Assembly: GCA_947172415.1 (NCBI GenBank)
Contig: OX359200.1
Span: forward strand, 3,722,501 to 3,786,500
Reading direction: 5' to 3'
Source: Chondrosia reniformis
Lineage: Eukaryota > Porifera > Demospongiae > Chondrillida > Chondrillidae
Length of the DNA stretch: 64,000 nucleotides
Both the position numbers and the translations under genes were made by a program. Within the stretch, counting starts at the first letter, position 1. The number at the start of each line of letters is the position of its first letter. Shown here in pieces: positions 1-34,295 of the stretch. The notes under the pieces are model-generated. The model did no database searches and was not told where the DNA came from. It saw only the letters and a program-made list of their open reading frames with translations.

Positions 1-2486
1 TTATATGTACTAGTTCCCTGTGTATGGACTAGTTTTATGTAGTACTTGTGTGTACTAGTTATATGTGTATGTAATAGGTATATGTAGTAGTTGTATGTAC
101 TAGCTATATTGAATAGTTATAGGTTCTAGTACTAGTTATAGTGGTTACTAGGTGGGTACAGGTTGTATGTACTAGTTATATTTAGTAGTTGTGTGAACTA
201 GGCGTATATACTAGTTGTTTGTACTAGTTATATGTACTAGTTGAATGTACCAGTTGTATCCACCATTTATATGGACTAGTTGTATATACTAGTTGTAAGT
301 ACTAAATAGCTGTAAGTTCTAGTACTAGTTTATACTAGGTACTAGGTTGGTTCTAGTTGTACGTACTAGTTGTATGTACTAGTTGTTTGTACTAGTTTTA
401 TGTAATCAATACAAGTTGTATGTACTAGTTGTATGTACTAGTTATATGTACTAGTTGTATGTACCACTTGTGTGCAATTGTTGTATGTATTAGTTGTATG
501 TACTAGATGTAGGTTGTAGTACTAGTTGGACTAGGTAATAGGTGGGTTCTAGTTGTATGTACCAGTTGTTTGTACTAATTGTATGTACTAGTTGCTTGTA
601 CTAGTTCTATGTACTAATGGTATGTTCTAGTTTTGTTGTTGTTTAATGTAGTAATTGTGTGTACTAGTTATATTTACTGGTTGTGGGTACTAGTTGTATG
701 TTCAAGTACAAGTTATAACAAAGTATTAGGTAGGTACTAGTTGTATGTACTAATCGTTTGAACTAGTTCTATATACTAATTGTATATTCCAGTTTTATGT
801 ACTAGTTGTATATATGTACTAGTTGTATGTACTATTTATATGTACTAGGTATATGTGTATGTGCTGGTTATATGTAGTAGTTGTGTGTACTACATGTATA
901 TACTAGTTGTATAAAGTAGTTATATGTACTAGTTGTATGTACAAGTTATAGGTTCTAGTACTAATTATACTAGGTACTATGGAGATTTTAGTTGAATGTA
1001 CTAGACACAAGTTGTATATACTATTTGTATGTATTAATTGTGTGTTATTGTTGTATGTACTTGTTGTATGCACTATTTATATTTATTAACTGTATGTACT
1101 AGTAGTAAGTACTAGTTGTATGTTCTAGTACTAGTTATATTAGGTACTAAGTAGGTACTAATTGTATGAAGTCTTTGTATGTACTAGTTGTTTGTACTAG
1201 TTGTATGTACTCGATACTAGTTGTATGACTAGGTGTAGATACTTGCTGTAGGTTCTAGTACCAGTTGTACTACGTACTAAGTAGCTTCCAGTTGTATGTA
1301 CTAGTTTTATGTACCACTTGTAGGTTCTAGTTTATGTTCTAGTTGTATATACTATTTATATGTGCTAGTTTTCTGTGAATGCACTAGTTTAATGTAGTAA
1401 TTGTGTGTACTAGTTTTATGTACTAGTTGTGTGTAGTAGTTGTATGTACTAGTTGTATGTACTGTTTACATGTACTAGGTATATGTGTATGTACTAGTTA
1501 TATGTAGTAGTTGTGTGTTCTAGGTGTATATACTAGCTGTATGTTCTAGTTATATGTACTAGTTGTATGTACTCGTTGTAGGTTCTAGTCCTAGTTATAC
1601 TAGGTACTAGGTAGGTCCTAGTTGCATGTACTAGACACAAGTTGTATGTACTATTTGTATGTACTAGTTGTGTGTACTAGGTTTATGTACTAGTTGTGTG
1701 TAGTAGTTGTACGTACTACATGTACTTACTATGTGTATGTACTAGTTGTAGGCATTAGTTATATGTACGAGTTGTAAGTACCACTTGAATGCACTAGTTG
1801 TATATATGTTCTGGCTGTGTGTAATAGTTATAGGTTCTTTATAGTAGTAGTTATAGTGGGTACTAGGTAATTACAGGTTGTATGTACTATCTTTTTGTAC
1901 TATTTGTATGTACTAATTATATGTACTAGTCATATGTACTAGATATGTACCATTGTATGTAATAGTTGTATTTAGTAGTTGTAAGTACTATTTATATGTA
2001 CTAGTTATATGTGTATGTACTAGTTTTATGTAGTAGGTGTATGTATTACTTGTAATTAATAGTTGTATGTACTAGTTGTAAATACTAGATGTATTTACTA
2101 GTTATATGTACACATTACTAGCTGAATGTGACAGTTGTACGTTTTAGTTGTATGGACTAATACTAGTTTTATTTACTAGTCATAGATACTAGTTGTTTGT
2201 AGTATTTGTATGTACTGGTACAAGGTATATTTAGTATTTGTAGGTACTATATGTATGTACTAGTTGTATGTACTAGATTTATGTTCTAGTTGTATGTAGT
2301 AGTTGTATGTATTAGTTGTATGTATTAGTTTTTTTGTACTCGTAAATTGTTGTTTGTACTAATTGTATGTACTACATTTCTGTACTCATAACTAGTTGTG
2401 TGTAGTAACTGTATTTACTAGTTTATGTATTAGTTGTATGTACTAGTTGTGTGTACTGGTTGCATGCACTAGTTATATGTACTTCA
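1..2486 (+). repeat. Satellite array, 13-bp unit, forward
   Basis: Degenerate tandem array of a 13-bp unit near ACTAGTTGTATGT. Common variants change one or two positions (TTATATGT, TTGTGTGT, TTTTATGT) or insert short blocks such as TAGGTACTAGG. This is the left outer arm of the palindrome. No gene is seen in it. Confidence 0.95.
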
Positions 2487-2599
2487 CATTGTATAGATAA
2501 ATAATTCGATACATACTAAACAGATTAAATAACAATGCATATAAGAAAAAAAGTTTATATGTATAGTCAATAAAAGCCATGCAAGCATAGTTACAATAG

Positions 2600-5124
2600 T
2601 TAGATTGAAGGCAGGACACATGACCTGCAGTCATTATTGGCAAGTGTAAATGAGTCAAATCTGACGGGTCTCCCTTGACGAGATCTGTATTCTCTGATTG
2701 CATTGATCGAGGATTTGAGGAGGGCAAAGTTGATCTTGATGCGAATCCATAAAATCCCCTGACCATATGGTTTGCCTCGCTTCGCTGAGATCAGGTCAGC
2801 CAGATGCTTGTATGCCACTGCTGTAGACTTGCTCATCCCTCCAAAGATCGAGAAGACAAGGGGAGTGAAGGAGCTCTTCTCTACCTCTCGGACGCGTTCT
2901 TCATATTGCCTACGCTTTCCCCGCTCTTGCAATTGGTATACTGCTTCCAGGGAGGATTTGCGATAGCTTTGGGCAGTTGGATTACAGATCCTTACGCCAA
3001 AATATGCCCTCTGACTATCGTTGCCCCAGAATCCCTGGGCACAGATGTCTGATCTCGCATTGTCCTCAGTGATTGCACTTGCGTAGGAGAACCTCTCGCC
3101 ACTCAGAGGTGGCAATGGCGGTTCAATAGCAACTCCCTCACACACTTCTGTCATAAGATTGGCTGTTATGTCACGAATGAGGTTGTGGCGCTTACTTGGG
3201 AATCCTCCGCTTGGACAGTCCATGGCATGTGAGACACTAAAGCCCTGCCCGCAAGCACATTGTGAGGGCAATCTAGGGGGTGTCCATTGGTATCGAATGC
3301 ACAGTGCATCCCTGAAATCGCCTTTGTGCAGAGCAAAGTCATAGTCTGCCCTTGGAATTGCTGTTAGCCATGCTGATGCTCCCTTCTCCTGTGCCATGTC
3401 CACGTTTCGCTTCATCTCCTGGGGTATCTTCAATCTAACATCCGCAACTTCCTGCTGACGTTTCACTTTTCTTTGCTGTCTTAGTTTGTTCTTAGCTTCT
3501 TTCTGCTCAGCTTCAACCCGTGCATCATAATTCGACTCTTTGTTGATGATGGCTGCAACCAAGGGTTGAGTAACAGTTGTTGAGGCATCACACTCATCCC
3601 TTGATTTACGAGTGGGAATGGAGATGTCAAGTCCTCCCAATCTTGCAGGTAGGGCCAATAGCTCTCTGACTTCATCTGTGACATCTCTTCCTATTAATGC
3701 TGGCAGGAAATCTCCCACAATTGTTTCCTCAAGGAGATGCAGCAAATCTTCCAGGTCAGGTGTTGTTCTCATTAGATAGGACCATTGATTGCGGATCCCA
3801 TGAACTAACACTGCATACGCAGCATGGGGCTGAATGTTGGCCATATCTGATAGCTTCTTCATGGTTCCTGACCACTTCCTCACCTCCCTTCTTAGCATGT
3901 CCTGAACTGAAGCCTCAGTACCCAAAGCTGACCCAAGATATCTGTTCGCATCAGTTGTCACCTTTACTCCACTGTTCCTAAACAGGGCTCGTGCTTCTTC
4001 CAATTTCTCCTTCTTCACAATAATCACAGTCTTTGAGGGATTGGCATAGTAACCATACGATGGTCCCGATTCAATTATTTTATCCCACCATGATCAAAGA
4101 TTATTCAGGGATCCAGTTGCGGAAGCATCATCAGCAAACCATATCTGGTGTTGTTCATCACAGTCCACCTGCAATCTCCATATCAGGGGCATGATCCCAA
4201 CGGCATAGATGGCCATAGCCAAAGGGTCCCCCTGTGGAACACCCTCTTGTGAGAGAAGTATCTCACCATCGATGAACAACTTGGACTCTTCCCGATATAG
4301 GTTGGTTGCAACTATTGCCAAGGTAGGGCAGATACTTTGGAAGTTTCTCAGAGCGACTTGTCGGTTCAGACGGTTAAACGCATTGCTTGCATCAACAAGT
4401 AAGGCTGCATCAGTTGATTCATCTTGAAAGAGGGTACGAATGGCATGGACAGCGGCTTCAGCACCCGCTTCTTGACCTGCGCATAGCTGTAGATTTCCTG
4501 TGACCCTCAAGACATCTGGCTTTATCACCTTGAGTATGGCCTTCCCAATTATTCTGCATGCTGCTTTGCCAACTCCAATTGGCCGGACGCCAGGATTCTT
4601 ATTCAAGGCAATAAGGCGGCAAGCTGTATAGGCTGCTAGTCCATTCGGGTCAACATTTGAGGTTGCAATCTTTCTTGCCACACAAGCCAGTGCACTGCAT
4701 AGGTCATCAGAAGCCACACCAAAGGAAGTAGCAAACCGCTTCCAAGCCTGGGCATCTGCACCAGAAGGACCAGCAGCACCATTTGCACGAAGCGCAGCCT
4801 GCTTTTTGGACAAAGCATCAATGGAGTCAAAAATCACTGGGTGGACCTCAGTGTAGTCCATGTCTTCATGTGCTCTTATTACACTTTGGTGAGCTGGCTC
4901 CCCATTGGGATATTTTTCACGCAGAATGTCTCTCACTGATCATACACATCCTCCCTCATTTTACTTGGTCATCCAGGGACAAAACACCCGCACCATTAGC
5001 CTGTTTATTCAGCAGTCGGACTGAATCTCTCACTTTGCCACGGAACATTAGACTGGTGAAAACTTTTTCAAGCTTTTCATCATCTGCTTGCCTTCTCTGT
5101 GGTAGTCGTTGCTGGATGGTGCAC
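2600..5124 (-). pseudogene. Reverse transcriptase with CCHC and restriction-like endonuclease, copy A (broken)
   Basis: Reading down the minus strand: an N-terminal piece (5124 to about 4968), a 1-nt shift near 4968, a TGA at 4940-4942, then an open stretch 4936-4097. That stretch holds RT motif A (LVDASNAFN), motif B (GVPQGDPLA) and the catalytic box FADD. An in-frame TGA at 4094-4096 follows; the frame stays open through 4093-4028 and on to 2600. The C-terminal half has the knuckle CACG-x7-H-x4-C and the RLE segment ending FGVRICNP. The acidic residue expected there (FDVRI in the copy at 41.3 kb) is Gly, so nuclease activity is probably lost. A coiled, basic linker (KNKLRQQRKVKRQQEV) sits between RT and knuckle. 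The stops occur where an Arg codon (CGA) would fit. Confidence 0.87.
4487..5124. other. Unduplicated spacer at the palindrome centre
   Basis: This 638-bp stretch is single copy in the window. It is the 5' part of LINE copy A on the minus strand (protein segments TIQQRLPQRRQADDEKL and SLMFRGKVRDSV, then the RT fingers region). Arm identity begins at the shared CTATGCGCAGG on each side. At the right border lies an 8-bp perfect palindrome, GGTGCACC at 5118-5125. Confidence 0.85.
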
Positions 5125-7010
5125 CTATGCGCAGGTCAAGAAGCAGGTGCTGAAGCCGCTGTCCATGCCATTCGTACCCTCTTTCAAGATGAATCAACTG
5201 ATGCAGCCTTACTTGTTGATGCAAGCAATGCGTTTAACCGTCTGAACCGACAAGTCGCTCTGAGAAACTTCCAAAGTATCTGCCCTACCTTGGCAATAGT
5301 TGCAACCAACCTATATCGGGAAGAGTCCAAGTTGTTCATCGATGGTGAGATACTTCTCTCACAAGAGGGTGTTCCACAGGGGGACCCTTTGGCTATGGCC
5401 ATCTATGCCGTTGGGATCATGCCCCTGATATGGAGATTGCAGGTGGACTGTGATGAACAACACCAGATATGGTTTGCTGATGATGCTTCCGCAACTGGAT
5501 CCCTGAATAATCTTTGATCATGGTGGGATGAAATAATTGAATCGGGACCATCGTATGGTTACTATGCCAATCCCTCAAAGACTGTGATTATTGTGAAGAA
5601 GGAGAAATTGGAAGAAGCACGAGCCCTGTTTAGGAACAGTGGAGTAAAGGTGACAACTGATGCGAACAGATATCTTGGGTCAGCTTTGGGTACTGAGGCT
5701 TCAGTTCAGGACATGCTAAGAAGGGAGGTGAGGAAGTGGTCAGGAACCATGAAGAAGCTATCAGATATGGCCAACATTCAGCCCCATGTTGCATATGCAG
5801 CGTTTGTTCATGGGATCCGCAATCAATGGTCCTATCTAATGAGAACAACACCTGACCTGGAAGATTTGCTGCATCCCCTTGAGGAAACAATTGTGGGAGA
5901 TTTCCTGCCAGCATTAATAGGAAGAGATGTCACAGATGAAGTCAGAGAGCTATTGGCCCTACCTGCAAGATTGGGAGGACTTGACATCTCCATTCCCACT
6001 CGTAAATCAAGGGATGAGTGTGATGCCTCAACAACTGTTACTCAACCCTTGGTTGCAGCCATCATCAACAAAGAGTCGAATTATGATGCACGGGTTGAAG
6101 CTGAGCAGAAAGAAGCTAAGAACAAACTAAGACAGCAAAGAAAAGTGAAACGTCAGCAAGAAGTTGCGGATGTTAGATTGAAGATATCCCAGGAGATGAA
6201 GCGAAACGTGGACATGGCACAGGAGAAGGGAGCATCAGCATGGCTAACAGAAATTCCAAGGGCAGACTATGACTTTGCTCTGCACAAAGGCGATTTCAGG
6301 GATGCACTGTGCATTCGATACCAATGGACACCCCCTAGATTGCCCTCACAATGTGCTTGCGGGCAGGGCTTTAGTGTCTCACACGCCATGGACTGTCCAA
6401 GGGGAGGATTCCCAAGTAAGCGCCACAACCTCATTCGTGACATAACAGCCAATCTTATGACAGAAGTGTGTGAGAGAGTTGCTATTGAACCGCCATTGCC
6501 ACCCCTGAGTGGCGAGAGGTTTCCTACGCAAGTGCAATCACTGAGGACAATGCGAGATCAGACATCTGTGCCCAGGGATTCTGGGGCAACGATAGTCAGA
6601 GGGCATATTTTGGCGTAAGGATCTGTAATCCAACTGCCCAAAGCTATCGCAAATCCTCCCTGGAAGCAGTATACCAATTGCAAGAGCGGGGAAAGCGTAG
6701 GCAATATGAAGAACGCGTCCGAGAGGTGGAGAAGAGCTCCTTCACTCCCCTTGTCTTCTCGATCTTTGGAGGGATGAGCAAGTCTACAGCAGTGGCATAC
6801 AAGCATCTGGCTGACCTGATCTCAGCAAAGCGAGGCAAACCATATGGTCAGGTGATTTTATGGATTTGCATCAAGATCAACTTTGCCCTCCACAAATCCT
6901 CGATCAATGCAATCAGAGGATACAGATCTCGTCAAGGGAGACCCGTCAGATTTGACTCATTTACACTTGCCAATAATGACTGCAGGTCATGTGTCCTGCC
7001 TTCAATCTAA
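5125..7010 (+). pseudogene. Reverse transcriptase and RLE, copy B (5'-truncated, broken)
   Basis: Open from the fusion at 5125 to a TGA at 5515-5517 just after the FADD box (WFADDASATGSLNNL), the same nonsense change as in copy A. It then runs on in frame (SWWDEIIESGPSYGYY) through the thumb and linker to the CACG knuckle. A private 1-nt deletion near 6520 (TTCTCC in A, TTTCC in B) shifts the frame inside the RLE. The rest of the RLE is readable in another frame to the stop at 7008-7010. The catalytic-position Gly (FGVRI) is shared with copy A. The shared lesions predate the inversion and the frameshift postdates it. Confidence 0.88.
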
Positions 7011-7128
7011 CTATTGTAACTATGCTTGCATGGCTTTTATTGACTATACATATAAACTTTTTTTCTTATATGCATTGTTATTTAATCTGTTTAGTGTGTA
7101 TCGAATTATTTATCTATACAATGTGAAG
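5125..7128 (+). mobile_element. RLE-type non-LTR retrotransposon, copy B (inverted partner of A)
   Basis: Plus-strand mirror of copy A starting abruptly at LCAGQEAG of the RT domain (5125) and ending in the same 3' UTR and satellite junction near 7128. It is not an independent insertion: its 3' flank is the mirror image of the left-arm satellite, base for base over long stretches. Confidence 0.9.
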
Positions 7129-10100
7129 TACATATAACTAGTGCATGCAACCAGTACACACAACTAGTACATACAACTAATACATAAACTAGTAAATACA
7201 GTTACTACACACAACTAGTTATGAGTACAGAAATGTAGTACATACAATTAGTACAAACAACAATTTACGAGTACAAAAAAACTAATACATACAACTAATA
7301 CATACAACTACTACATACAACTAGAACATAAATCTAGTACATACAACTAGTACATACATATAGTACCTACAAATACTAAATATACCTTGTACCAGTACAT
7401 ACAAATACTACAAACAACTAGTATCTATGACTAGTAAATAAAACTAGTATTAGTCCATACAACTAAAGCGTACAACTGTCACATTCAGCTAGTAATGTGT
7501 ACATATAACTAGTAAATACATCTAGTATTTACAACTAGTACATACAACTATTAATTACAAGTAATACATACACCTACTACATAAAACTAGTACATACACA
7601 TATAACTAGTACATATAAATAGTACTTACAACTACTAAATACAACTATTACATACAATGGTACATATCTAGTACATACGACTAGTACATATAATTAGTAC
7701 ATACAAATAGTACAAAAAGATAGTACATACAACCTGTAATTACCTAGTACCCACTATAACTACTACTATAAAGAACCTATAACTATTACACACAGCCAGA
7801 ACATATAAACAACTAGTGCATACAAGTGGTACTTACAACTCGTACATTTAACCAATGCCTACAACTAGTACATACACATAGTAAGTACATGTAGTACGTA
7901 CAACTACTACACACAACTAGTACATAAACCTAGTACACACAACTAGTACATACAAATAGTACATACAACTTGTGTCTAGTACATGCAACTAGGACCCACC
8001 TAGTACCTAGTATAACTAGGACTAGAACCTACAACCAGTACATACAACTAGTACATATAACTAAAACATACAGCTAGTATATACACCTAGTACACACAAC
8101 TACTACATATAACTAGTACATACACATATACCTAGTACATGTAAATAGTACATACAACTAGTACATACAACTACTACACACAACTAGTACATAAAACTAG
8201 TACACACAATTACTACATTAAACTAGTGCATTCACAGAAAACTAGCACATATAAATAGTATATACAACTAGAACATAAACTAGAACCTACAAGTGGTACA
8301 TAAAACTAGTACATACAACTAGAAGCTACTTAGTACGTAGTACAACTGGTACTAGAACCTACAACTAGTATCTACACCTAGTCATACAACTAGTATCGAG
8401 TACATACAACTAGTACAAACAACTAGTACATACAAAGACTTCATACAACTAGTACCTACTTAGTACCTAGTATAACTAGTACTAGAACATACAACTAGTA
8501 CTTACTACTAGTACATACAGTTAATAAATATAAATAGTGCATACAACAAGTACATACAACAATAACACACAATTAATACATACAAATAGTATATACAACT
8601 TGTGTCTAGTACATTCAACTAAAATCTCCCTAGTACCTAGTATAACTAGTACTAGAACCTATAACTTGTACATACAACTAGTACATATAACTACTTTATA
8701 CAACTAGTATATACATGTAGTACACACAACTACTACATATAACCAGCACATACACATATACCTAGTACATATAAATAGTACATACAACTAGTACATATAT
8801 ACAACTAGTACATAAAACTGGAATATACAATTAGTATATAGAACTAGTTCAAACGATTAGTACATACAACTAGTACCTACCTAATACTTTGTTATAACTT
8901 GTACTTGAACATACAACTAGTACCCACAACCAGTAAATATAACTAGTACACACAATTACTACATTAAACAACAACAAAACTAGAACATACCATTAGTACA
9001 TAGAACTAGTACAAGCAACTAGTACATACAATTAGTACAAACAACTGGTACATACAACTAGAACCCACCTATTACCTAGTCCAACTAGTACTACAACCTA
9101 CATCTAGTACATACAACTAATACATACAACAATTGCACACAAGTGGTACATACAACTAGTACATATAACTAGTACATACAACTAGTACATACAACTAGTA
9201 CAAACAACTAGTACATACAACTAGTACGTACAACTAGAACCAACCTAGTACCTAGTATAAACTAGTACTAGAACTTACAGCTATTTAGTACTTACAACTA
9301 GTATATACAACTAGTCCATATAAATGGTGGATACAACTGGTACATTCAACTAGTACATATAACTAGTACAAACAACTAGTATATACGCCTAGTTCACACA
9401 ACTACTAAATATAACTAGTACATACAACCTGTACCCACCTAGTAACCACTATAACTAGTACTAGAACCTATAACTATTCAATACAGCTAGTACATACAAC
9501 TACTACATATACCTATTACATACACATATAACTAGTACACACAAGTACTACATAAAACTAGTCCATACACAGGGAACTAGTACATATAAATAGTATATAC
9601 AACTAGAACAAAAACTAGAACATACAACTAACACATTGAACTAGTACATACAACTAGAACCTATCTAAAACCTAGTACAACTAGTACTAGAACCTACAAC
9701 TAGTACTTACAACTAGTAAATACAACGAGTATCGAGTACATACAACTAGTACATTCAACTAGTACAAACAAGTAGTACATACAACTAGTCCAACAACTAG
9801 TACATACAACTAGTACCCACCTAGTACCTAGTATAACTAGTACTAGAACGTTCAACTAGTACTTACAACTAGTACACACAATTAGTACATATAACTAGTA
9901 AACACAACTGCAACAAAAAACTAATCATACACAGGTAACTAGTACATATAAATAGTGTATGCAACTAGAACATAAACTAGAATATACAACTGGTACATTG
10001 AACTAGTACATCCAACTAGAACCTACCTAGTACCTAGTACAACGCGTACTAGAACATACAACTAGTACTTAAACAAGTACATATAAATAGTGCATACAAC

Positions 10101-11690
10101 TAGTACACACAACTAGTACATGCAACAAGTACAGACAACTAGTACATTCAACTAGTACATACAACTACTAAATATAACTAGTACATACAACTGGAACACA
10201 CATCTGGTACATACAAATAATAAGCACAACTAGTACATAGAAATAGTGCATATATACAACTAGAACATGAAACTGCTACATACAACTAGTACATACAACT
10301 AGTACATACAACCATCCATACAACTAGTACATACAACTAGTAACTACAAGTAGTATATACAACTATTCCATACAAAAATTACACACAACTAGTACAAATC
10401 GGTAGTACATATAACTATATACAACTAGTTCAAACAACTACTACTTACGACTAGTATAAACAACTGGTACATACTGCTAGAACACAAAATTAATACATAA
10501 AACAAGTATATACAACTAGTACATACAACTACTTACTAGTACATACAACTAGTACATATAATTATTACATACAACTAGTACATATAACTAGTACATACAA
10601 CAATTACACACAATTAGTACATACAACTACTACATATAACTACATACAACTAGTACATACAATTAGTAAATACTGATTGTAACTAGTACATACACCTAGT
10701 ACATACAACTAGTACAAGCAACAAGTACATACAACTAGTATATGCAACTACCAAATACAAATTGATACTAGAAGATATTACTAGTAGAAAGAGCTAGTAA
10801 ATACATATTGTTCCCAGTATTTACACCTAGTAAATACAACTAGGACATACAACTTGTACGTATAACTCATACATACGACTAGTATATACAACAATACATA
10901 CAACTAGTACATACAACTAGTACATACAACTGGTGCATATAACTAGTACATACAACAATTGCACCCAACTAGTTCATACAACTATACATACAATCAGTAA
11001 ATGCAAAGTGTTGCTAGTACATACACCTAGTACACACAAATAGTACAATCAACTACTAAATACAGATTGATACTAGAACATATAACTAGTACAAAGAGTA
11101 AGTAAATAAATATTGTTACTAGTACTTACACCTAGGAAATACAACTAGTACATAAAACTAGTACATACAACTAGTACATATATCTAGTTACTAGTACATA
11201 CAACTAGTACATGCAGCTAGTACATAAAACTAGTACATAAAACTAGTATATACAACCACTAACTAGAACATAAATACATCTACTACATTCAACTAGTACA
11301 TACAATCAGTACAAACAACTAGTACATTCAACTACTAAATACAGATTGATACTAGACCATACGACTAGTACAAAGAACTAGTAAATACATATTGTTACTA
11401 GTACTTACACCTAGTTCATACAACTAGTACTTACAACTAGTACATATAACTAGTACATGCAACTACTTACTAGTATATACAACTAGTACATACAATTAGT
11501 ACATACAACTTTTACATATAACTAGTTCATACAACAATTAGACACAAATAGTGCATGCAACTTGTGTATATAACTACATACAAGTAGTACATACAACTAA
11601 TAAATACAGCTAGTAACTACAACTAGTAAATATAACTAGTACATACACAAATGTCACACAACTAGTACCTACAAGTAGTACATACGTATA
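7129..11690 (-). repeat. Satellite array, reverse orientation
   Basis: Same 13-bp unit read as ACATACAACTAGT. 7129-9589 is the right palindrome arm. Beyond 9589 the array continues in reverse orientation with further variant blocks such as ATTGATACTAGA near 10.75, 11.08 and 11.35 kb, a local higher-order pattern. No gene is seen. Confidence 0.94.
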
Positions 11691-11696
11691 TATTAT

Positions 11697-14600
11697 ATTC
11701 TGTAGTTGTATGTGCCAATTGTATGTACTAGTTGCATGTACTAGTTATATGTGAATATACTAGTTGTATGTACTAGTCGTAGGTTCTAGTTCTAGTTAAA
11801 CTAGGTACTATGTAGGTACTAGTTAAATGTACCAGATAATACTTTTATGTATTAGTTGAATGTACCAGTTATATGAACTAGTTCAAAATACCAGTTGTAG
11901 GTACTAGTTGTATGAACTTGTTGAATGTTATAGTTGTATGTACTAATTGCATACACTAGTTTTATGTACTAGTTGTGTGAACTAGTTGTATGTGCGAATT
12001 GTATGAACTAGTTTTATGTGCGAGTTGTATGTAATAGTTGTATGTGGTAGTTATATGTACTATTTTTATGTACTATTTATATGTACCAGTTATATGTGTA
12101 TTTACTTGTTATATGTAGCAGTTGTGTCTACTAGTTTTATGTACTAGTTATATGTGTATGTACTAGTTGTATGTACTAGTTTTAGGTTCTAGTACCAGTT
12201 AAACTAGGTACTATGTAGCTACTAGCAATATATACTAGATTTTACTTGTATGTCCTTCTGTGTGTTCTAAATCTCTGAATTAGTTTTAGGACTACCCGTG
12301 TGTCCTAATTGTATATACTATTTGTTTGTACTAATTGTTTGTACTAGTTGTATGTACTAGTTGTATGTTCAAGTTGTATGTACTACTTATATGCACTTAT
12401 AAATGCCCATGTTTTGTGTAAAAGTTGTATGTACTAGTTGTATGTACTAGTTGTGTGTACTAGTTTTATGTACTTGTTATATGTACTAGTTTTATATACT
12501 ATTTGTATGTACTAGTAGTATGTAATACATAGGTGTACTATTAATAGTTACCAATTATATGTGCATGTACTACGTATATCTAGTAGTTGTGTACCTGTTA
12601 TAGGTACTAGTTTGATGTACTAGTTATAAGTACTAGTTGTAGTTTCTAGTATTATTTAAACTAGGTACTAAGTAGGAACTAGTTGTTTGCACTAGTACTA
12701 GTTATATTAACTAGTTGTTTGCACTAGTACTAGTTATATTAACTAGTTGTAGGTATTAGTTACATGTACTAGTTGAATGTATTAGTTGTATGTACTAGGT
12801 GCATATACTAGTTGTGTGTACTAGTTCTTTGTACTAGTTTCATGTACAAGTAATGTACCAGTTGTATGTACTAGTTGAATGAAGTAGTTGTGTGCACTAG
12901 TACTAGTTATATTTAGTAGTTGTAGGTGCCAATTGTATGTACTAGTTGTTTGTACTAGTTGTATGTACTAGTTTTATGTACTTGTTATATATACTAGGTG
13001 TATATACTATTTGTATGTACTAGTTTTATGTTCTGTATAGGTGTACTATTAATAGTTACCAATTATATGTGCATGTACTACTTATATCTAGTAGTTGTGT
13101 ACCTGTTATAGGCACTAGGGTGATGTACTAGTTGTAGGTTCTAGTACTATTTAAACATGGTACTTAGTAGGGACTAGTTTTTTGCACTAGTCCTAGTTAT
13201 ATAAACTAGTTGTAGGTACTAGTTACATGTACTATTTGTATGAACTAGTTGTATGTGCTAGTTACTAGTTGTATGTTCAAGTTGTATGTACTACTTATAT
13301 GCACTTATAAATGCACATGTGGTGTGTAAAAGTTGTATGTACTAGTTCAATGTACTAGTTGTATGTACTAGTTCAATGTATTAGTTTTATGTACTAGTTC
13401 AATGTACTAGTTGTATGTACTAGTTCAATGTACTAGTTGTATGTACTAGTTATATGTTTTAGTGCCATCTTCTAGTTTCCAGTTATATGTAGTAGTTTTA
13501 TGTAAAAGTAATATTAACTAGTTGTATGTACTAGTTGTATGTACTAGTTTTATGTACCAGTTATATGTATATGTACTTGTTATACGTAGTAGTTGTTTGT
13601 ACTAGTTATATGGACTAGTTGCTTGTACTACTTGTAGGTTCTAGTACTAGTTATACTAGGGATTGGTTTGTGCTAGGCGTATATACTAACACTAGTTATA
13701 TTTACTAGTTGTAGGTACTAGTTGTATGGAGTAGTTGTGTTCTAGTTGTAGATACTATTTTGATGGACTAGTTGTATTTACTAGTGTAAGAACTAGTTGT
13801 TTGTACTAGTACTAGTTTTATTTTGTAGTTGTAGGTGTCAATTATATGTACTAGTTGTATGTAGTAGTTATATGTGAACATACTAGTTGTATGTACTAGT
13901 TGTAGGTTCTAATACTAGTTATATTAGGTACTAGGTAGGGACTAGTTAAATGTACTAGATACTACTTGTATGTACTAGTTGTAAGTACTAGTACTAATTA
14001 TATTTTCTAGTTGTAAGTGCCAATTGTAGGTACTGGTTGCATGTGCTAGTTGCATGTACTAGTTATATGTGAATATATTAGTTGTATGTACTAGTTGTAG
14101 GTTCTAGTTCGAGTTAAACTATGTACTATATAGGTACTCAATAAATGTACAAGATACTACTTGTATGTACTAGTTGAATGTAGTAGTTATATGAACTAGT
14201 TGAAAATACCAGTTGTATGTCCTAGTTGTATGTACTGGATGTATGTACTAGTTATATGTACTACCAACTAGTTGTATGTGCTAGTTGTAATTACTACCTA
14301 TATGCACTAGTTCTATGTACATGTAGTGTGTAAAAGTCGAATGTACTAGTTGTGTGGACTAGTTGTTTGTACTAGTTGTATGTACTAGTTGAATGAACTC
14401 ATTGCTAGTTGTATGTAGTAGATGAATGTACTAGGTACCTTCCAATTGTTTGTACTAGGTGTATGTACTAGTTATTTAAAATTGTATGAACTAGTTGCAA
14501 CAACTAGTTGTATTTACTAGTACAAGTGATATTAACTAGTTGTAGGTACTTTTTGTATGTACTAGTTATATGTACTAGTTGTATTTTCAAGTTTTATGTA

Positions 14601-20049: not shown

Positions 20050-20080
20050 TTTGGGGGTCAGTGTTTTGTAAACACTAGTT

Positions 20081-23000
20081 ATGTGTCAGCACCTCCTCGT
20101 GGTTACCCCTGCGCAGTTACTTTACCTGGCGAAAGCTGACCTTGTAGACTTAGTTATCTGGAACTTGGGTACAGGGTGTCATTTGATGGCATCACCCGAT
20201 TTTCATCAAGTCGTTAATCCTGCAGCAGACTTGCATACTGCTGTGGACGATATGTCATCTACTCAGTTACCATCAATTTTAAAGGCACGTAGTACAAGAC
20301 AAAAGCGATCATTGAAACATTCAGTGTGGTATATGGCTTCCTGGAATGTTAGGTCCTTATTGGATGTAGAGGGTCCTAATGAAGTTGCTAAACAAGGCCG
20401 TGGAGTGAAGTATATGGAAGATAGGAAGATGGATCAGGTAGTTATTGAACTTTCAAGATACAAGGTTGTTGTTTGTGCATTACAGGAAACTAAATGGTTT
20501 GGTAATGAAGTTTATAAAGTGGGTAATGGTGTTGTCCTGTCATCTGGGAGATCAGTACCGGGATTAGGTGAGATTAGGCAGAGAAGAGAAGGTGTAGCTA
20601 TTGTTCTAATAGGTCCTGCTTTAGAAGCTTGGAAAAATGGGGGTAGTGTTTGGAAGGCATGGTTATCAAGAATAATTTTGGTAATGTTAGTTGACGATAG
20701 TTTTAGGGGATCAAACCGTTTGCATGTTTTGTCTTGCTATGCACCAACCTTTTCAGCTACTAGGCAAGAGAAAGATTCATTTTACAGTACCCTACAGTTT
20801 GCACTAGATGCCATTGCACTCAGAGAAAATGTTTTATTTTTGGGAGACTTTAAAGCTCGTATTGGATCCTGATCAAGTTTTGAGGAAGATGAGTGGTGGA
20901 ATGTCAGGGGTCCTCATGGTTTGGGTATTATGAATGAAGCTGGTAGGGCATTTTTGTCATTTCTTGCTATGAATCAAGCCATTGTCTGTAACACCTGGTT
21001 TGAGAAGAAGTCCATTTATAAGTCAACCTGGCAGCATCCTAAGTCCAAACAATGGCACTGCATTGATTATGGTATACTCAAGCTAAAGGATAGGAGAAGA
21101 TGTTTGGATATTTCAGTAATGCATGGAGCAGATTTCAATACTGACCATCACTTACTGAGGATGAAGCTCCAAATGAAATCTTAAAAGGGATATAAAATGT
21201 CTAAGGAGAACAAGAAAGTGCTTGAGGTAAAGAAAAAATATGATGTTTCCCAACTGACTGGTTCATGTGTTGATGATAAGGGAGAACTGACAACAAAGGG
21301 TATTTTTCAAGAAAATGTTTACCAGAGAGTGAAAAGGTCTTGGCAAGACATGAAAACTGCAAATGAGAAGTGGTCAGCCATCAAGGATGCTCTTCAGAAA
21401 GCTGCTAAGTGTTGTTCGAGGTTAGAGAAAAGGAGACAGCCAGACTGGTTTAGAGACAGTTACAACTGTTTAAAGCCCTTGATAGAAGATAGGAATAAAC
21501 TATATGCTAGATGGGTAAGTACTGGTAATCAGGGGGACAAGAGAAAGTACTGTACACAACGTAGGTTTACCAGGAAGGTTATAAGAGAAGCGAAGAATAA
21601 ATGGTTCCAACAGAAGGCCTCTGAGGCTCAGAAAGGTAGGCATGGTAGTTTAGTGTGAAGGTTTATTAGGGAGATGCAACATGGTAGAATAGGACTTATC
21701 CCTGTTCGATCAAAGGCTGTTAAAGATGAAAATGGGATTGCATGTACAACCCCAAAAGCACAACATCAAAGATGGAGACAGCATTTTAGTAAAGTTTTAA
21801 ACCTTCAAAGCCAGTTCGATGAGTCAGAGTAGGAAAATGTTAAACAAAGACCTATGAAGAATGAAATGTCTTGTCTGCCATCGTTGGAAGATTTGTGTGA
21901 GGCCATAACTAGATTGAAAAATGGAAAGGCTGCAGGTGCTTCTGGTATCCTTCCAGAAATGGTTAAAGTAGCTTATGAAAGGGAAGAGTTTCTTGAAGTA
22001 CTTCTGGACTTGGTTCATGAGGTATGGAAGGAGTGTAAAGTCAGATTGGACAAACGCCATCCTGATTCCAATTCCGAAGAAAGGTGACCTTAGCTCATGT
22101 GATAATTGGAGGGGTATTTCACTCCTTGATGTTGTTGGAAAATTGGTAGCCAGTATTCTTCAAAGAAGGTTGCAGGTTTTGGCTGAAGAGATTCTAACTG
22201 AATCGCAGTGTGGTTTTAGAAAGGGCAGAAGCTGTAGTGATATGGTTTTTACTATGAGGCAGTTAGTAGAAAAGTCATGGGAACATTCGGCTAAACTTTT
22301 TGTTACCTTCATTGACCTGCAAAAAGCATATGATTTAGTACCAAGAAATGCATTGTGGATGGCACTAAGAAAGTTAGGTGTACCAGATAGCATAGTAAGT
22401 CTTATTGGGTCATTTCATCAGGGCATGACAGCAACTATTCAGTTGGATGGGGAACTGTTAAAGGAGATTAATGTTGAGAATGGGTTGAGGCAGGGTTGTT
22501 GCATGGCCCCAGTTTTATTCAACCTGTATACATATCCTTTGATGGAACAATGGTATGCTAAGACTGTAGAATCAGATGGGATTGGTATTGCTTTGAGGTT
22601 CAAGTATGATGAGAAATTATTTAGAAGATATATAAGGAATGCAGATGAAAGGAAGCTAACTGAATGCCTCTTTGCAGATGATGGAGCCCTCCTTGCAACA
22701 AGTCAGGATGGTGCTCAAAAAGCAATTAAGGAATATATGGCTGTGAGTAGAAGTTTTGATCTTACAGTTAGCATCTCTAAGACAAAGCATATGGCTACTG
22801 GAAGAGCTTTATCAAATGTAGAGAAGGCACCAATCTCAGTAGGTATAAATGAAACTATTAGTGTGGTTGAGGAGTTCAAATACCTAGGTTCTGTTATAGG
22901 TGCTTCTGGAAATATGGATGGTGATATTCAAAACAGATTGGCTCAAGCATTGAGAGCATTTGGTGCCCTGAGGAAAGCTGTTTTCCAGGATAAGAACTTA

Positions 23001-23714
23001 TCTCTGATGACAAAAAGAAAGATCTATCAATCCTGTGTTCTTACAGTGCTCCTTTATGGTGCTGAATCTTGGATACCACTAAGAAGACATGTCATCAAAT
23101 TAAATGCTTTCCATCATAGATGTATTAGATCAATCTTAGGGATAACGAATAGGCAGCAATGGGTGCAGAGTATTACTTCTTGCAACATCAGACAAAGATG
23201 GGGTGATCTGGAAACAATAGAAGATAAATTGATTAAGAGAAGATTGGAGTGGCTAGGTCACCTTGCTCGTATGTCAAATAAAAGAATCCCCAAATCTGCA
23301 CTATTTGGATGGCTCACACAACCACGCCCCAGATGTGGACCAAAGAAGAGGTGGAGAGATGCAGTTAGCCAGGACTTGAAGACTATAAGCGTTGGCGAAA
23401 ATAACTGGTATAGTGAAGCAAATGAATCACGAGAGGTATGGAGAGCATTGTATAACTTAGGAGTAGAGGATCATGTGAAGAGCCGATGCACAGATAGACA
23501 ATCAACCCAAGCCAACTATGGTGTATTTTGCGACATATGCAAAAGGTCTTTTAGACATGAGGGTGATAATAAGAGGCACAAATGTACAGCCGAGCGGAGA
23601 AAACCAACAGCGGAACAGGTTGGGGCTACGCAATGCCTTGTATGCAGTAGGTGGTTTCGGAGCAAAGGTGGTTTTGCTCTGCATAATTGTTCCCCAGTGC
23701 CTTCTTCACACTGA
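20081..23714 (+). pseudogene. LINE ORF: APE endonuclease, reverse transcriptase, two C2HC fingers (broken)
   Basis: From ATG 20081 one frame runs to about 22040, interrupted by TGA 20870-20872, TAA 21182-21184, TGA 21656-21658 and TAG 21830-21832. A frameshift near 22040 then leads into a long open frame ending at 23714. The endonuclease region shows ASWNVRSL, LQETKW, GDFKAR (Asn to Lys change in the usual GDFNAR) and TDHHL. The RT region shows NWRGISLLDVVGK, TFIDLQKAYDLVPR, GLRQGCCMAPVLFN and the catalytic box FADDGAL. After the thumb (KYLGSVI) come a GHLARM/RCGPKKRW segment and two fingers, CDICKRSFRHEGDNKRHKC and CLVCSRWFRSKGG ending in HNC. The product would be about 1,200 residues, near usual length. 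The RT core looks intact but upstream stops prevent expression as one protein. Confidence 0.88.
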
Positions 23715-28494: not shown

Positions 28495-28834
28495 CAGTTA
28501 GAAAGCAGCTGCAATCGTGAGCATAAGCGACAGCGAGTTGGAAAAGAGGAGGCTGTTGGCAGTGCCCTGTTTCTATGGTTAAACTGAAATTGGGCAGGGT
28601 GCACGACTTTCAGGACCAATACTTAAGCAGAAGGCCAAGGAATTCAGAGAAGCGGATGGGTCTAATTTTTCACCTTCTGACGGCTGGCTGTCACGTTGGA
28701 AGAAACTCTACGACATTGTTTAAACTTTAATATGTAGCTATTACATTATTCTTACCTTCTGCTTAATTGGGACTACTGATAAAATGGGACATTATCCTGA
28801 CTCCCGAGGCGTCCCGATTAAGTGGAATATACTG
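28495..28834 (+). mobile_element. Pogo/Tigger-like nonautonomous remnant 1
   Basis: Begins with CAGT at 28495 and ends ACTG at 28834, followed by TA. Compared with the fuller copies, the left 150 bp or so are deleted just after CAGT. It retains the best-preserved CENP-B-type domain of the four copies. All four copies share satellite flanks, so they were probably amplified with the satellite and did not insert separately. Confidence 0.8.
28589..28723 (+). pseudogene. CENP-B-type helix-turn-helix fragment of a pogo/Tigger transposase
   Basis: Frame 28589-28723 reads GARLSGPILKQKAKEF, then GSNFSPSDGWLSRWKKLYDIV and a stop. This is the second DNA-binding half (CENP-B type) of a pogo/Tigger transposase. 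The preceding half (RVGKEEAVGSALFLWLN) is in another frame just upstream. No DDE catalytic domain is present, so only the DNA-binding end of the gene was retained. Confidence 0.8.
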
Positions 28835-29949
28835 TACCAGTTATATGTGCATGTACTAGGGATATGTACGGCTTGTATGTACTAGTTATATGTACTAGTT
28901 GTATGTATTAGCTGTATGTACTAGTTGTTTGTAATAGTTGCGTGTACTAATTGTATGTACTACTAATATGTACTACTTCTATATACTGTTTGTATGTACC
29001 ATTTGTTTGTACTCATTGTATATACCAGCTGGATGTACTAGTTGGATGTTTTAGTACTATATATATTTAGTAGTTGTAGGTACTAGTTGCATGTACTAGT
29101 TGTGTCTACTGGTTTTATGTTCTAGTTGTATGTTCTAGTTGTATGTACTAGTTATATAATCTAGTTATATGAACTAGTTGTATGTACTAGTTATATTTGC
29201 TATTGATATGTACTAATTTTATGTAGTAGTTTTATGTACTAATTGTATGTATTAGTTGAATGTACTAGTTGTATGTAGTAGCTAGCTACCAGTTGTATGT
29301 ATCAGTTGTATCTACTAGTTGCATGTACTAGTCACTAGTTGTGTGTACTAGTTGTACGTACTACTTGTATGTACAACTTGTATGTACCAGTTATATGCAC
29401 TAGTTACAAGTTGTGTGTATTAGTTCTATGTTCTATTTGTATGTACTAGTTATATGTATTAATCTTAAATACTAGTTATAGGTACTAGTTGTATGGACTA
29501 GTTCTACACACTATTTGTAAGAACTATTACTATATAGTTATATTTACAAATTAAAGGTACTAGTTGTATGTACTAGTTTTATGTTGTAGTTTTATGTAGT
29601 AATTGTTATATGTACTAGTTTTATGTACTAGTTATGTCCCAGTGGTATGTACTAGTTGTATTTATTAATTCCATGTACTTGTTGCATGTACTAGTTGGGT
29701 TTACTAGTTGTATGTACTACTTGTATGTACTAGTTGTATGTACTACTTGTATGTACTAGTTGTATGTACTAGCTGTATGAACTAGTTGTATGTTGTCATT
29801 GTAAGTACTAGTTCTATGTACTAATTTATTGTACTAGTTGTTTGTACCAGTTCTATGGACTAGTTGTATGTACTAGTTCTAGGCAATAGTTGTAGTACTA
29901 GTAAAATGTAATAGTTGTGTGTACTATTTGTAGGTACTATTTATATCTA
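28835..29949 (+). repeat. Satellite array, forward
   Basis: Forward 13-bp units between two Tigger remnants. No gene is seen. Confidence 0.93.
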
Positions 29950-30441
29950 CAGTGGCGGCCGGTTAATCGGAATCCGATTAATAGTGATTTTTGATTAAAC
30001 AGGTCCATTTCTGTGGAACAGATTCGCTATAAACGTTGCGTATACAAATTACTTCTGATAATTGCGATGAGATTTCGGTTAATTGGGACGTTTGGCGAAG
30101 GCTAAGGAAGAAATCTTATAGCAGCTTGAAAGCGGCGGCAATCGTGAGTGTAAGCAACAGCGAGTTGGGGAAGAGGAGGTTGTTGGCAGTGCCCTGTGTC
30201 TATGGTTAAACAGTAGTTGAGCCAGGGTGCACGACTTTCAGGACCAATACTAAAGAATTCGGATGGATCTAATTTTTCACCTTCTGACGGCTGGCTGCCA
30301 CGTTGGAAGAAAGTTACAACATTGTTTAAACTTCAATATGTAGCTGTTACATTTGTCTTTACTTTCTGCTTATTTGGGACTAGCGATTAATTGGAACATT
30401 TTCCCGACTCCCGAAGCATTCAGATTAAGTGGAATGTACTG
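29950..30441 (+). mobile_element. Pogo/Tigger-like nonautonomous remnant 2
   Basis: 492 bp, CAGTGGCGG at the left (preceded by TA) and GGAATGTACTG at the right. Ends pair weakly (CAGT and TTAATC shared). The interior holds the same CENP-B-type fragment with more damage. Its left flank (ATTTATATCTA) mirrors the right flank of the minus-strand copy at 32183-32669, showing the two are one insertion duplicated in inverse. Confidence 0.82.
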
Positions 30442-31560
30442 AACAGTCATATGTGTATGTACTAGGTATATGTACTGGTTGTATGTACTAATTGTATATA
30501 CTAGTTGCATGTACTATTTATATGTACTAACTATATGTGTATGTACTAGTTATATGTAGTAGTAGAGTGTACTAATCATATATACTAGTTGTATGTACTA
30601 GGTGTGTGTACTAGTTGTAGGTTCTAGTACTAGTTATAATAGGTACTGGGTAGGAACAAGTTCTTTGTACTAGCTGTTTGTACTATTGGTATGTGCTAGG
30701 TATATGTACCAGTTTTGTGGAGTAGTTGTATGTACTACTTGCACGTACTAGTTGTATGTACTAGTTATATGTGCTAGTTGTATGTATGAGTTGTGTGTAC
30801 TAGTTGTATGTATTAGTTGTATGTATTAGGTGTATTAACTAGTTTCTAGATTTATGTACTAATTGTATGTACTAGTTTTAAGTACTCATGCTATGTGCTA
30901 GTTTTATGTACTAGACGTAGTATTAGTTGTATTTACTAGTTGTATATTCTAATTGAATATACTAGTTGTATGTAATATATACTTGCATATATTAGTTGTA
31001 TGTACTATTTATATGTACTAGTTGTAGGTTCTAGTTCTAGTTATAATAGGTACTAGTTAGGTGCAAGTTGTTTGTACTTGTTGTTTGTACTATTGGTATG
31101 TACTAGTTGTGTGTACCAGTTTTGTTTAGTAGTTGTATGTACTACTTGTATGTACTAGTTGTATGTATGAGTTGTGTGTACTAGTTGTATGGACTAGTTG
31201 TATGTACTATTTATATGTACTAGTTATACATGTATGGACTAGTAATATGTAGTAGTGGTGTGTACTAGTTGTGTGTATTAGTGGTATATACTACTTGTAC
31301 GTACTAGTTGTATGTACAAGTTGTATGCATTAATTTCATGTCCTAGTTATATGTCCTAGTTGTATGCACTAGTTGTATGTACTAAGTGTATGTACTATAT
31401 ATATGTACTAGTTATATGTGTATGTACTAGTTACTTCTAGTTCTTGTGGGTACTAGTTATATGTACTAGGAGTATGTACTAGTTGTATGTAGTAGTTGTA
31501 TGTACTAATTGTATGTACTAGTTGTATGTGCTACTTAGAGGCACTAATTGTATAAACTAT
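30442..31560 (+). repeat. Satellite array, forward, up to an orientation switch
   Basis: Forward units with an internal near-duplicate block (TATAATAGGTACT blocks at about 30.63 and 31.04 kb). Orientation flips at about 31560. Confidence 0.92.
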
Positions 31561-32182
31561 TTCATAACACTAGTACATACAAGTAGTGCCTAAAACTAGT
31601 ACATACAAATATTACATGCAATTAATATGGAGGACTTACAACTAGTATATACATCTAGTACCTACCTAGTATAACTAGTAGCATAACCTACAACTAGTAC
31701 ATACAACTAGTACATTCAATTAGAACATATAAGTAGTTTATACAATTAGTGCCTACGAGTAGCACATACAACTAGTACATACAGCGAGTAGATACGACTA
31801 GTATAAAACACTAGTATTTATAACTATTACACACAACTACTACTTATAACTAGTACATACACATATAACTAGTACTTATAAATAGTTCATAGAACTAGTA
31901 CAAACAACTGGTACATACAACTATTACATACAACTGGTACATACAACTAGTTCATACAACTAGTACATACAACTAGTACACACAACTAGTACAAAGAGGT
32001 ACTACATACAACTAGAAGCTAGGACATACAACTAATACATAGAACGATTACATAAAACTAGGACATACAACTGGTTCATACAACTAGTACATAGCTAGTA
32101 CATCCAACTAGTACATACAACTGGTACATAACTAGTACCTACAACCAGTACATATACCTAGTACATACACATATAACTGGTA
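31561..32182 (-). repeat. Satellite array, reverse
   Basis: Reverse units from the switch point to Tigger remnant 3. No gene is seen. Confidence 0.92.
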
Positions 32183-32669
32183 CAGTACATTTCACTTAAT
32201 AGGGATGCCTTGCAGTTGGGAGACTATTCCAATTAATCACTAGTCCCAAATAAGAAGAAGGTAAAGAAAACTGAAACAGCTACATATTAAAGTTTTAACA
32301 ATGTTGTAGCGTTTCTTCCAACGTGGCAGCCAGCTGTCAGAAGGTGAAAAATTAGATCCATCCGCTTCTCTGAAATTTTAGTATTGGTCCTAAAAGTCGT
32401 GCATCCTGGCTCAACTACTGTTTAACCATAGAAACAGGGCACTGCCAACAACCTCCTCTTTCCCAACTCGCTGTTGCTTAAGCTCAAGATTGCAGCCGCT
32501 TTCAAGCTGCTACAAGATTTCTTCCTTAGCCTTCACCAAACGTCCCAATTAACCGAAATCTCGTCCCGATTCTCACAAGTAATTTGTATACAAAATGTTT
32601 ATAGCGAATCGCTTCCACAGGAATGGACCTGTTTTACCAAAAATCTCTATTAATCGGATTCCGCCACTG
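32183..32669 (-). mobile_element. Pogo/Tigger-like nonautonomous remnant 3
   Basis: Minus-strand copy, CAGTACATTTC at the left and GCCACTG at the right, TA on both sides. Inverse counterpart of remnant 2 by flank similarity (AACCAGTACATATACCTAGT on its left). Carries the CENP-B-type fragment in decayed form. Confidence 0.82.
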
Positions 32670-34295
32670 TAGATATAAATAGTACCTACAAATAGTCCAT
32701 ACAACTATTACATTATACTAGTACTACAACTAGTACATAGAACTAGTACATAAAACTAGTACATACAACTGTTAGAAACAACTAGTACATACGACTACTA
32801 CATACAACTAGTAAATTATACTAGTACAGACAACTAGTCCATAGAACTCGTACAAATAACTAGTACATTAAACGAGTAAATAGAACCTGTACTTACAATT
32901 ACAACATACAACTAGTACATACATATAGGACACACAACTAGTAAACCCAACTAGTACATACAACTGGTACATAACTAGTACATAAAACTAGTACATAAAA
33001 CTAGGACATGCAATTAGTACATAAAACGACTGCATACAACTAATACATACAACTAGTACCTACAATTTTGTAAAAATAAATATATAGTAGTAGTTCTTTC
33101 AAATAGTGTGTAGAACTAGTCCATACAACTAGTACCTATAACTAGTAATTATGATTAATACATAGAACTAGTACATAGAACTAGAACTGAGAACTAGTAC
33201 ATATAACTAGTACATACAAATAAAACATACAACTAGTACACACAACTAGTAACTAGTGCATACAACTGGTATATACAACGTGTACATACAAGTAGTACCT
33301 AGAACTAGTACACACACCTAGTGTGTACTAAATTTTACAAACATCTATAACTAGTAAAAACAACTAGTACATACAACTAGTATCTTGCACATACAACTAG
33401 TACCTACCCAGTGGGTACAGCTACTACATACAACTAGTACATATAACTAATGCATATGACAAGTACATACAACCAGTACATATCACTAGTATATACAACT
33501 AGTACATAGAGGTAGTATGGCGTACATACAACTTAAATATACAATAGTAAATACAACGGGTACATTGTACTAATACATACAACTAGTAACTAGTACATAC
33601 TACTAGTACATATAACTAGAACACACAACTAGTTCATACAACTAGTATTTACAACTAATAAATATAACTAATATTAGAACATACGACTAGAACATACAAC
33701 TAGTACATACAATTAATACATACAACCAGTACATACAACTAGTACATAGTAGTAGTAAATAGAACAAGTACATACAACTAGTACACAACTAGTACATATA
33801 GGTACTACATACTATAAGCTAGTACATACAACTAGTGCATAGAACGATTACATAAAATTAGTACATACAACTAGAAGCTAGTATATACAACTAGTACATA
33901 GGACGATTACATAAAAACTAGTACATACAACTGGTTCATACAACTAGTACACAGCTAGGATATACCACTGGTATATAACTAGTACATACAACTAGTACAT
34001 ACAACTAGTACATAGAACTAGTACATAGAACTAGTACATATAAATAGCACATATAACTAGTACATACAACTAGAACATAAAACCAGTACACACAAGGAGT
34101 ACATGCAACTAGTACCTACAATTGGTAAATATATGTAGTACAAGAACATCCAACTAGTACATCCAACTAGTATATACAATTAGTACATACAAATAGTACA
34201 TACAAATAGTACATAGAAGTAGTACATATAAGTAGTACCTACAACTAGTACATACAACTAGTACATATAGCTAATACATGCACTTATAACTGGTA
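32670..34295 (-). repeat. Satellite array, reverse
   Basis: Reverse 13-bp units. Local duplicates such as the AAGCTAGTACATACAACTAG blocks near 33.81 and 33.87 kb. No gene is seen. Confidence 0.93.

Follow-up and report, generated by a model that had tools for sequence, protein, structure and literature searches.

An interrupted palindrome of satellite and LINE-like sequence on chromosome 12 of the sponge Chondrosia reniformis and its relatives on other chromosomes

Inverted repeats common to chromosomes have been described at the centromeres of Candida tropicalis. They flank a CENP-A core, resemble each other more closely inside a centromere than between centromeres, and have an inverted orientation shown to matter for centromere function, with intra- and inter-chromosomal recombination proposed (PMC4741521). 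The palindromes of the human Y chromosome, such as P6, are reported as Y-specific long inverted repeats with arms more than 99.9% alike, gene conversion between arms and rare inversions (PMC3723533). In Drosophila, the non-long-terminal-repeat (non-LTR) element G2/Jockey-3 is common to the satellite-rich centromeres of many chromosomes, and its report shows CENP-A occupancy (PMC6516634). Fragile site 2 of yeast, an inverted Ty pair with a 280-bp spacer, is described as stable in wild-type yeast (PMC7999016). Here we describe a palindrome of 13-bp satellite and a long interspersed nuclear element (LINE)-like element on chromosome 12 of the sponge Chondrosia reniformis. It lies in C12:3722501-3786500, the 64,000-nucleotide stretch of DNA analyzed here and called the window.

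The structure is of a known kind, here in a sponge. As in C. tropicalis, the inverted repeats are common to chromosomes, resemble each other most within one locus (on C4 and C11), and recombination within and between chromosomes is proposed. Unlike those of C. tropicalis, the sponge repeats lie within 13-bp satellite, have a LINE at their centre and are known, like the element itself, from sequence alone. They share with the human palindromes their length, an inversion and what looks like gene conversion between arms, but they consist of satellite and LINE, occur on several chromosomes and have arms about 99% alike. Like G2/Jockey-3, the sponge element is common to satellite-rich regions of many chromosomes; it differs in riding in shared segments that are partly mirrored. 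The spacer of fragile site 2 is similar in size to those found here, but that site is a pair of Ty elements, whereas the sponge duplication also takes in flanking satellite. Ty elements are LTR elements. A pericentromeric palindrome on the Drosophila Y has also been reported. A limited literature search, judged by titles and abstract openings, found no work on sponge centromeres or on such a palindrome in a sponge, and the term "centromere" has 0 occurrences in the main text of the C. reniformis genome paper (PMC12181767).

The genome comprises 117,379,552 bases in 15 contigs. The assembly, odChoReni1.1, was made with hifiasm and Hi-C from PacBio HiFi reads (10.31 Gb, 0.80 million reads), and its reported primary quality value (QV) is 69.8 (PMC12181767). 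Our whole analysis rests on this one assembly. When the window was aligned with itself by BLASTN, positions 1-4489 matched the reverse complement of 5122-9589 at 98.6% over 4,489 columns, with 41 mismatches and 2 gap openings. The next inverted matches by score were satellite background at 67-69%, and the best other identity among the matches listed was 76%, so the palindrome stands far above chance. Its parts, in window coordinates, are as follows.

1-4489, minus strand, extending about 0.53 kb left of the window: left arm (copy B), 98.6% identical to the reverse complement of 5122-9589, with its end at C12:3721968.
4490-5121, no strand: 632-bp spacer, consisting of 5' sequence of the left-arm LINE that has no duplicate on the right.
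5122-10121, plus strand: right arm (copy C), 98-100% identical per 250 bp as far as 10121, with 92% and 79% in the next steps.
2530-5125, minus strand: left-arm LINE-like reverse transcriptase element, with open frames 2603-4093 and 4097-4939 and an in-frame stop between them.
5122-7080, plus strand: right-arm copy of the left-arm LINE, 5'-shortened and head to head with the left copy.
5121-5127, no strand: palindrome centre, a junction sharing about 1 bp; 1,250 bp of the C4 palindrome (C4:3420296-3421545) are absent here.
1-2472, plus strand: 13-bp satellite, unit ACTAGTTGTATGT and variants, forward.
7128-11636, minus strand: 13-bp satellite, reversed; the strand switch falls across the LINE pair.

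With the DNA left of the window included, the arms span C12:3721968-3726989 and 3727622-3732621, that is, window -532 to 4489 and 5122 to 10121, the left arm being cut by the window edge. Each arm is about 5.0 kb and the whole about 10.7 kb. All 20 steps of 250 bp show an arm identity of 98.0-100%, after which it drops to 92% and then 79%; about 1% of sites differ between the arms. Looser alignments enter the satellite background, reaching window -1108 and 10672 at 97.8% and, at the loosest, C12:3720516 to 3734119 at 93.1%. Each arm holds satellite and a LINE-like element, the two elements head to head with their 3' ends outward. With two long reverse-complementary arms, a short spacer and sharp ends, the locus is a long interrupted palindrome. 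The left-arm piece 4097-4939 matches the Pfam family RVT_1 (E 2e-8), as expected of the reverse transcriptase of a LINE.

A sequence-only reading of the window had proposed a near-perfect palindrome of at least 9.6 kb covering satellite and a LINE. The palindrome is real and longer than claimed, and its contents were rightly named. The mirrored satellite variant block TTTTTTTGTACTCG is present near 2330 and its counterpart near 7270. That reading ended the palindrome at 9589, which merely mirrors the first base of the window, and gave the spacer as 638 bp, close to the length measured. Its suggestion that a spacer of hundreds of bases aids stability agrees with a review in which longer spacers lower the risk (PMC7999016).

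Related inverted pairs are found on two other chromosomes, each with a spacer of 238 bp. On C4 the arms are 3415759-3420483 and 3420722-3425499 (93.1%), and on C11 they are 3321710-3324542 and 3324781-3327611 (98.9%). The high-identity part is less than 8 kb on C4 and about 5.9 kb on C11. A second pair, A and A', lies on C12 itself. Copy A (3696932-3705434) is a direct copy of the left arm B at 98.3%, joined at 3705428-3705434 to the inverted piece A'. In the 20 kb fetched for each of C9, C10 and C14, a single LINE has satellite of one strand on both sides, the uninverted form of the segment; C7 has one LINE copy by its coordinates. The same LINE 3' end and satellite flank are common to chromosomes 4, 10, 11, 12 and 14; on C9, too, the flank shows a likeness of 97-98% or higher up to about 3.5 kb.

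The C4 and C11 spacers are reverse complements of each other, 96.6% identical along their full length (238 of 238 bp). On C4 the arm bearing the outer flank common to C12 A and B runs without a break into the spacer. On C11 that flank is on the right arm and the spacer is continuous with the left. As the spacer joins opposite arms relative to the common outer flank, the spacer itself is inverted and not merely the whole unit. In C9 the 238-bp sequence is uninterrupted LINE 5' sequence (97.5%). The single-LINE state is therefore the simpler ancestor, from which a duplication that turned back inside the LINE gave the palindrome. C4 and C11 share one junction, so their inversion predates the split of the two copies, and near-perfect arms need not be recent. 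Relative to C4, the window palindrome is without the 1,250 bp listed above and A/A' is without C4:3419649-3423034 (3,386 bp), both sets of coordinates being good to a few bp. The two junctions have about 1 bp of shared sequence each, which fits centre loss by end joining, and the central gaps differ among C12 B/C, C12 A/A' and C13. Yeast MRX/Sae2 is reported to attack hairpins with loops of less than 9 nt (PMC8053094), and for that reason we name no nuclease for the 238-bp spacer.

Three further observations concern shared and inverted segments. Long collinear satellite-and-element segments around the single LINE are common to C9, C10 and C14 and are 85-98% alike. On chromosome 3, inverted copies of at least 18 kb (C3:3069001-3087679 and 4306001-4325290) lie about 1.24 Mb apart and are 88-96% alike. 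An outer breakpoint common to C4L and A', about 1.0 kb past the LINE, was suggested by profiles at 250-bp resolution; we rejected it as the letters place the two breakpoints some tens of bp apart.

We asked whether arms convert each other, using a tree of 15 LINE copies with ultrafast bootstrap and an approximately unbiased (AU) test for forced pairings. The two C4 arms group together (100), as do the two C11 arms (99), and the copies from inverted pairs separate from the rest (99). On C12, A, B and C group together (97), with B and C closest (90). LINE divergence is 0.56% between the C4 arms, 0.98% between the C11 arms and 1.54-1.80% between C4 and C11. At 17 sites the C4 and C11 arms group within chromosome, against 0 and 0 for the two alternatives, and both forced pairings of corresponding arms were rejected (AU p = 9.2e-6). 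In the first 0.93 kb of satellite, divergence is 0.43% for C4L-C4R (98), 0.86% for B-C (95) and 0.32% for A-A'. This is the signature expected if arm-to-arm gene conversion has kept the C4 and C11 arms alike. For the window's own arms the signal is mixed, and conversion would be patchy at best. Pairwise profiles replaced a multiple alignment in which satellite seems to have been misaligned in the C4L, A' and outer columns. A tree of the outer satellite was set aside, C11R having been aligned past its homologous part (33% from B).

The exact satellite was found on 14 of 14 chromosomes at relative positions of 0.28-0.55 among the matches listed, placing it near mid-chromosome. The exception is 6 overlapping satellite places near C3:7.00 Mb. 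Exact 28-mers number 4,521 in the genome, about equally split between the strands (2,309 and 2,212), with 0 and 0 for a reversed control. For placement, the 28-mer places listed were all on C1, 120 exact 54-mers fell on C1 to C12 among the matches listed, and two further exact-satellite searches gave 16/16 and 22/22 places listed. From its chromosomal position alone, the satellite block is probably the centromere. Protected chromatin, one setting offered by the sequence-only reading, accords with this position insofar as the setting is heterochromatic and centromere-like.

A 134-kb stretch (C12:3672739-3806459) was scanned for satellite strand switches and contains seven, two at head-to-head LINE pairs and five in plain satellite. 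Symmetry scores at the two LINE pairs are 1184 and 1469 (z 4.1 and 4.9). The other five have local scores of 519-624, each set against 40 random pieces. The switch at window 31.5 kb scores 624 against a background maximum of 530, and the four remaining plain switches fall below the maximum (z 0.7-1.1). We do not claim that all strand switches are palindromes, since most plain ones score within background. Around the 31.5-kb switch, window 28833-31035 and 31569-33898 match at 76% identity, perhaps an older palindrome. Two plain switches 60 kb apart, C12:3674341-3674440 and window 11636-11703, are near-identical by eye over about 125 bp across the switch, so that this switch seems to have been duplicated itself.

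We put at about 75% the explanation, taken whole, that the C12 palindrome is a genuine inverted duplication in a mid-chromosome, putatively centromeric satellite block. In the order of events we infer, the LINE would have resided first in 13-bp satellite, a state kept uninverted on chromosomes 9, 10 and 14. A break in the 5' part of the LINE would then have been mended through fold-back or fusion of sister chromatids, which left a pair of head-to-head LINEs, an unduplicated 238-bp spacer and a satellite strand switch. The segment would next have been exchanged between the mid-chromosome satellite blocks of the non-homologous chromosomes 4, 11, 12 and probably 13; the C12 and C13 copies may derive from the C4 form. 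Recombination between arms would follow, with gene conversion keeping them alike and a crossover inverting the C11 spacer relative to C4. Finally, end joining may have removed the centres, at points that vary between copies; here the loss of 1,250 bp would have left the 632-bp spacer. Almost all stages of one natural palindrome would then stand side by side in the genome: uninverted segments (chromosomes 9, 10 and 14), a palindrome with the original short spacer (4), one in which that spacer is flipped (11) and forms that have lost the centre (two on 12, probably 13). Such stages allow the ageing of palindromes, conversion between arms and exchange among non-homologous chromosomes to be measured, and they suggest a possible make-up of a sponge centromere.

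Several results weigh against this explanation. Five of the seven strand switches are without a LINE pair, and the only one of them to beat the background maximum, at 31.5 kb, has a z of just 1.4. The C11 left arm ends about 50 bp past the LINE, with satellite of the same strand on both sides and hence no strand switch. C13 enters by coordinates only, its letters unseen (a minus-strand LINE up to 2920358 and a plus-strand LINE starting at 2920358). Joins are taken on trust from the published HiFi assembly, and A and B, 21.5 kb apart and 98.3% alike, could be two haplotypes joined in tandem. As to conversion on C12, A and A' are closest by distance (0.32%) yet lack resolution in the tree, and LINE distances are mixed (B-C 1.03%, A-B 1.13%, A-C 1.03%). 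Four-copy site counts for the window's arms are 5:1:2 and 6:0:2. In the satellite 1.0-1.6 kb past the LINE, C joins C4R, C11R and C14 and is separated from A and B (95), with C-C4R at 0.83% and B-C at 1.50%. Because the support for B+C (90 and 95) is offset by this contrary stretch (95), our confidence in the best explanation is unaltered.

Among other accounts, an independent and recent origin of each palindrome on its own chromosome, with arms alike through youth and not gene conversion, survives best but is decidedly improbable. It would explain the grouping of the C4 and C11 arms by chromosome, and the centres of C12 B/C, C12 A/A' and C13 are unlike the C4/C11 centre. However, C4 and C11 have the same junction and 238-bp spacer, inverted-pair copies separate from uninverted ones (99), and deletions from the C4 form could account for the C12 centres. 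Recent formation, another option of the sequence-only reading, is accordingly not required: on C4 and C11 conversion better explains the likeness, with the window's arms mixed. That reading also allowed for an assembly or library fold-back, in which one strand was read out and back and kept as a mirror image. Satellite blocks are hard to assemble, and the mean HiFi read, about 12.9 kb from the published totals (PMC12181767), barely exceeds the 10.7-kb palindrome. A fold-back is nevertheless very improbable, with arms that differ at 41 positions in 4,489 columns of a QV 69.8 assembly, pairs of the same LINE with other centres on C4, C11 and the second C12 place (one with an inverted spacer), and high-identity parts on C4 and C11 that fit within a mean read. 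Two independent, opposite LINE insertions into already inverted satellite, without any inverted duplication, are barely credible even though 5'-truncated copies of the palindrome LINE occur in satellite and LINE-less switches are common (5/7), since satellite outside the LINEs is mirrored at 98-100% for about 3 kb and both LINEs have the same 3' flank, which separate insertions would not give.

A genuine inverted duplication could also be part of something broader, though we think this unlikely. LINE-seeded fold-back duplications, spreading between chromosomes, might be the main engine of centromere architecture in C. reniformis. They might create the frequent strand switches (2/7 in 134 kb), the other five being older or decayed. 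The inverted repeats might then be kept because their orientation aids centromere identity, by analogy with yeasts that have inverted-repeat centromeres.

The element itself behaves as a LINE. Seven copies elsewhere have seven different starts and an identical last base (query position 771), and a variable 5' start with a fixed 3' end is LINE behaviour. Its last 801 bp, used as a DNA query, gave 37 matches, and the 17 ends read include three types. The palindrome type accounts for 10 of the 17 (C12 A, A', B and C; C4 L and R; C11 L and R; C10; C14), the C3 type for three (C3a, C3b and the copy at window 41 kb) and the C5/C8 type for three (C5a, C5b and C8). The C9 copy ends about 45 bp short of the common 3' end and is untypable by that end. 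The C3-type copy in the window is the following.

41185-41942, minus strand: distinct copy belonging to a sister LINE subfamily, truncated at the 5' end and differing in its 3' end.

The C-terminal 497 aa of the LINE, in which a PD-(D/E)XK-type nuclease was looked for, had no Pfam match above the cut-off; M32 and DUF4892 fell below it and were disregarded. There were 0 matches to PDB sequences at E 0.01. AlphaFold2, given an alignment of four copies of which the other three are 96% identical to the first, returned an unusable fold (mean pLDDT 34, pTM 0.19). A likeness to restriction-like endonucleases is at most putative.

Of the matches to the reverse transcriptase (RT) family, 68 of 92 lie within 0.5 Mb of a satellite block, such stretches making up 22% of the genome. 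We do not claim enrichment or use a p value, this count being weak: matches are pieces and not independent copies, 86 of 583 candidates were scored, and block limits derive in part from the matches listed. Among those scored candidates, all 9 RT relatives listed with open frames of more than 1000 aa are no more than 0.5 Mb from a mid-chromosome satellite block (on C2, C3, C4, C5, C6, C8, C9 and C12), and they may be active members of the family. The window also contains another non-LTR-like element at 20072-23711, with a match to RVT_1 (E 7e-36) and, below the cut-off, a weak one to endonuclease/exonuclease/phosphatase.

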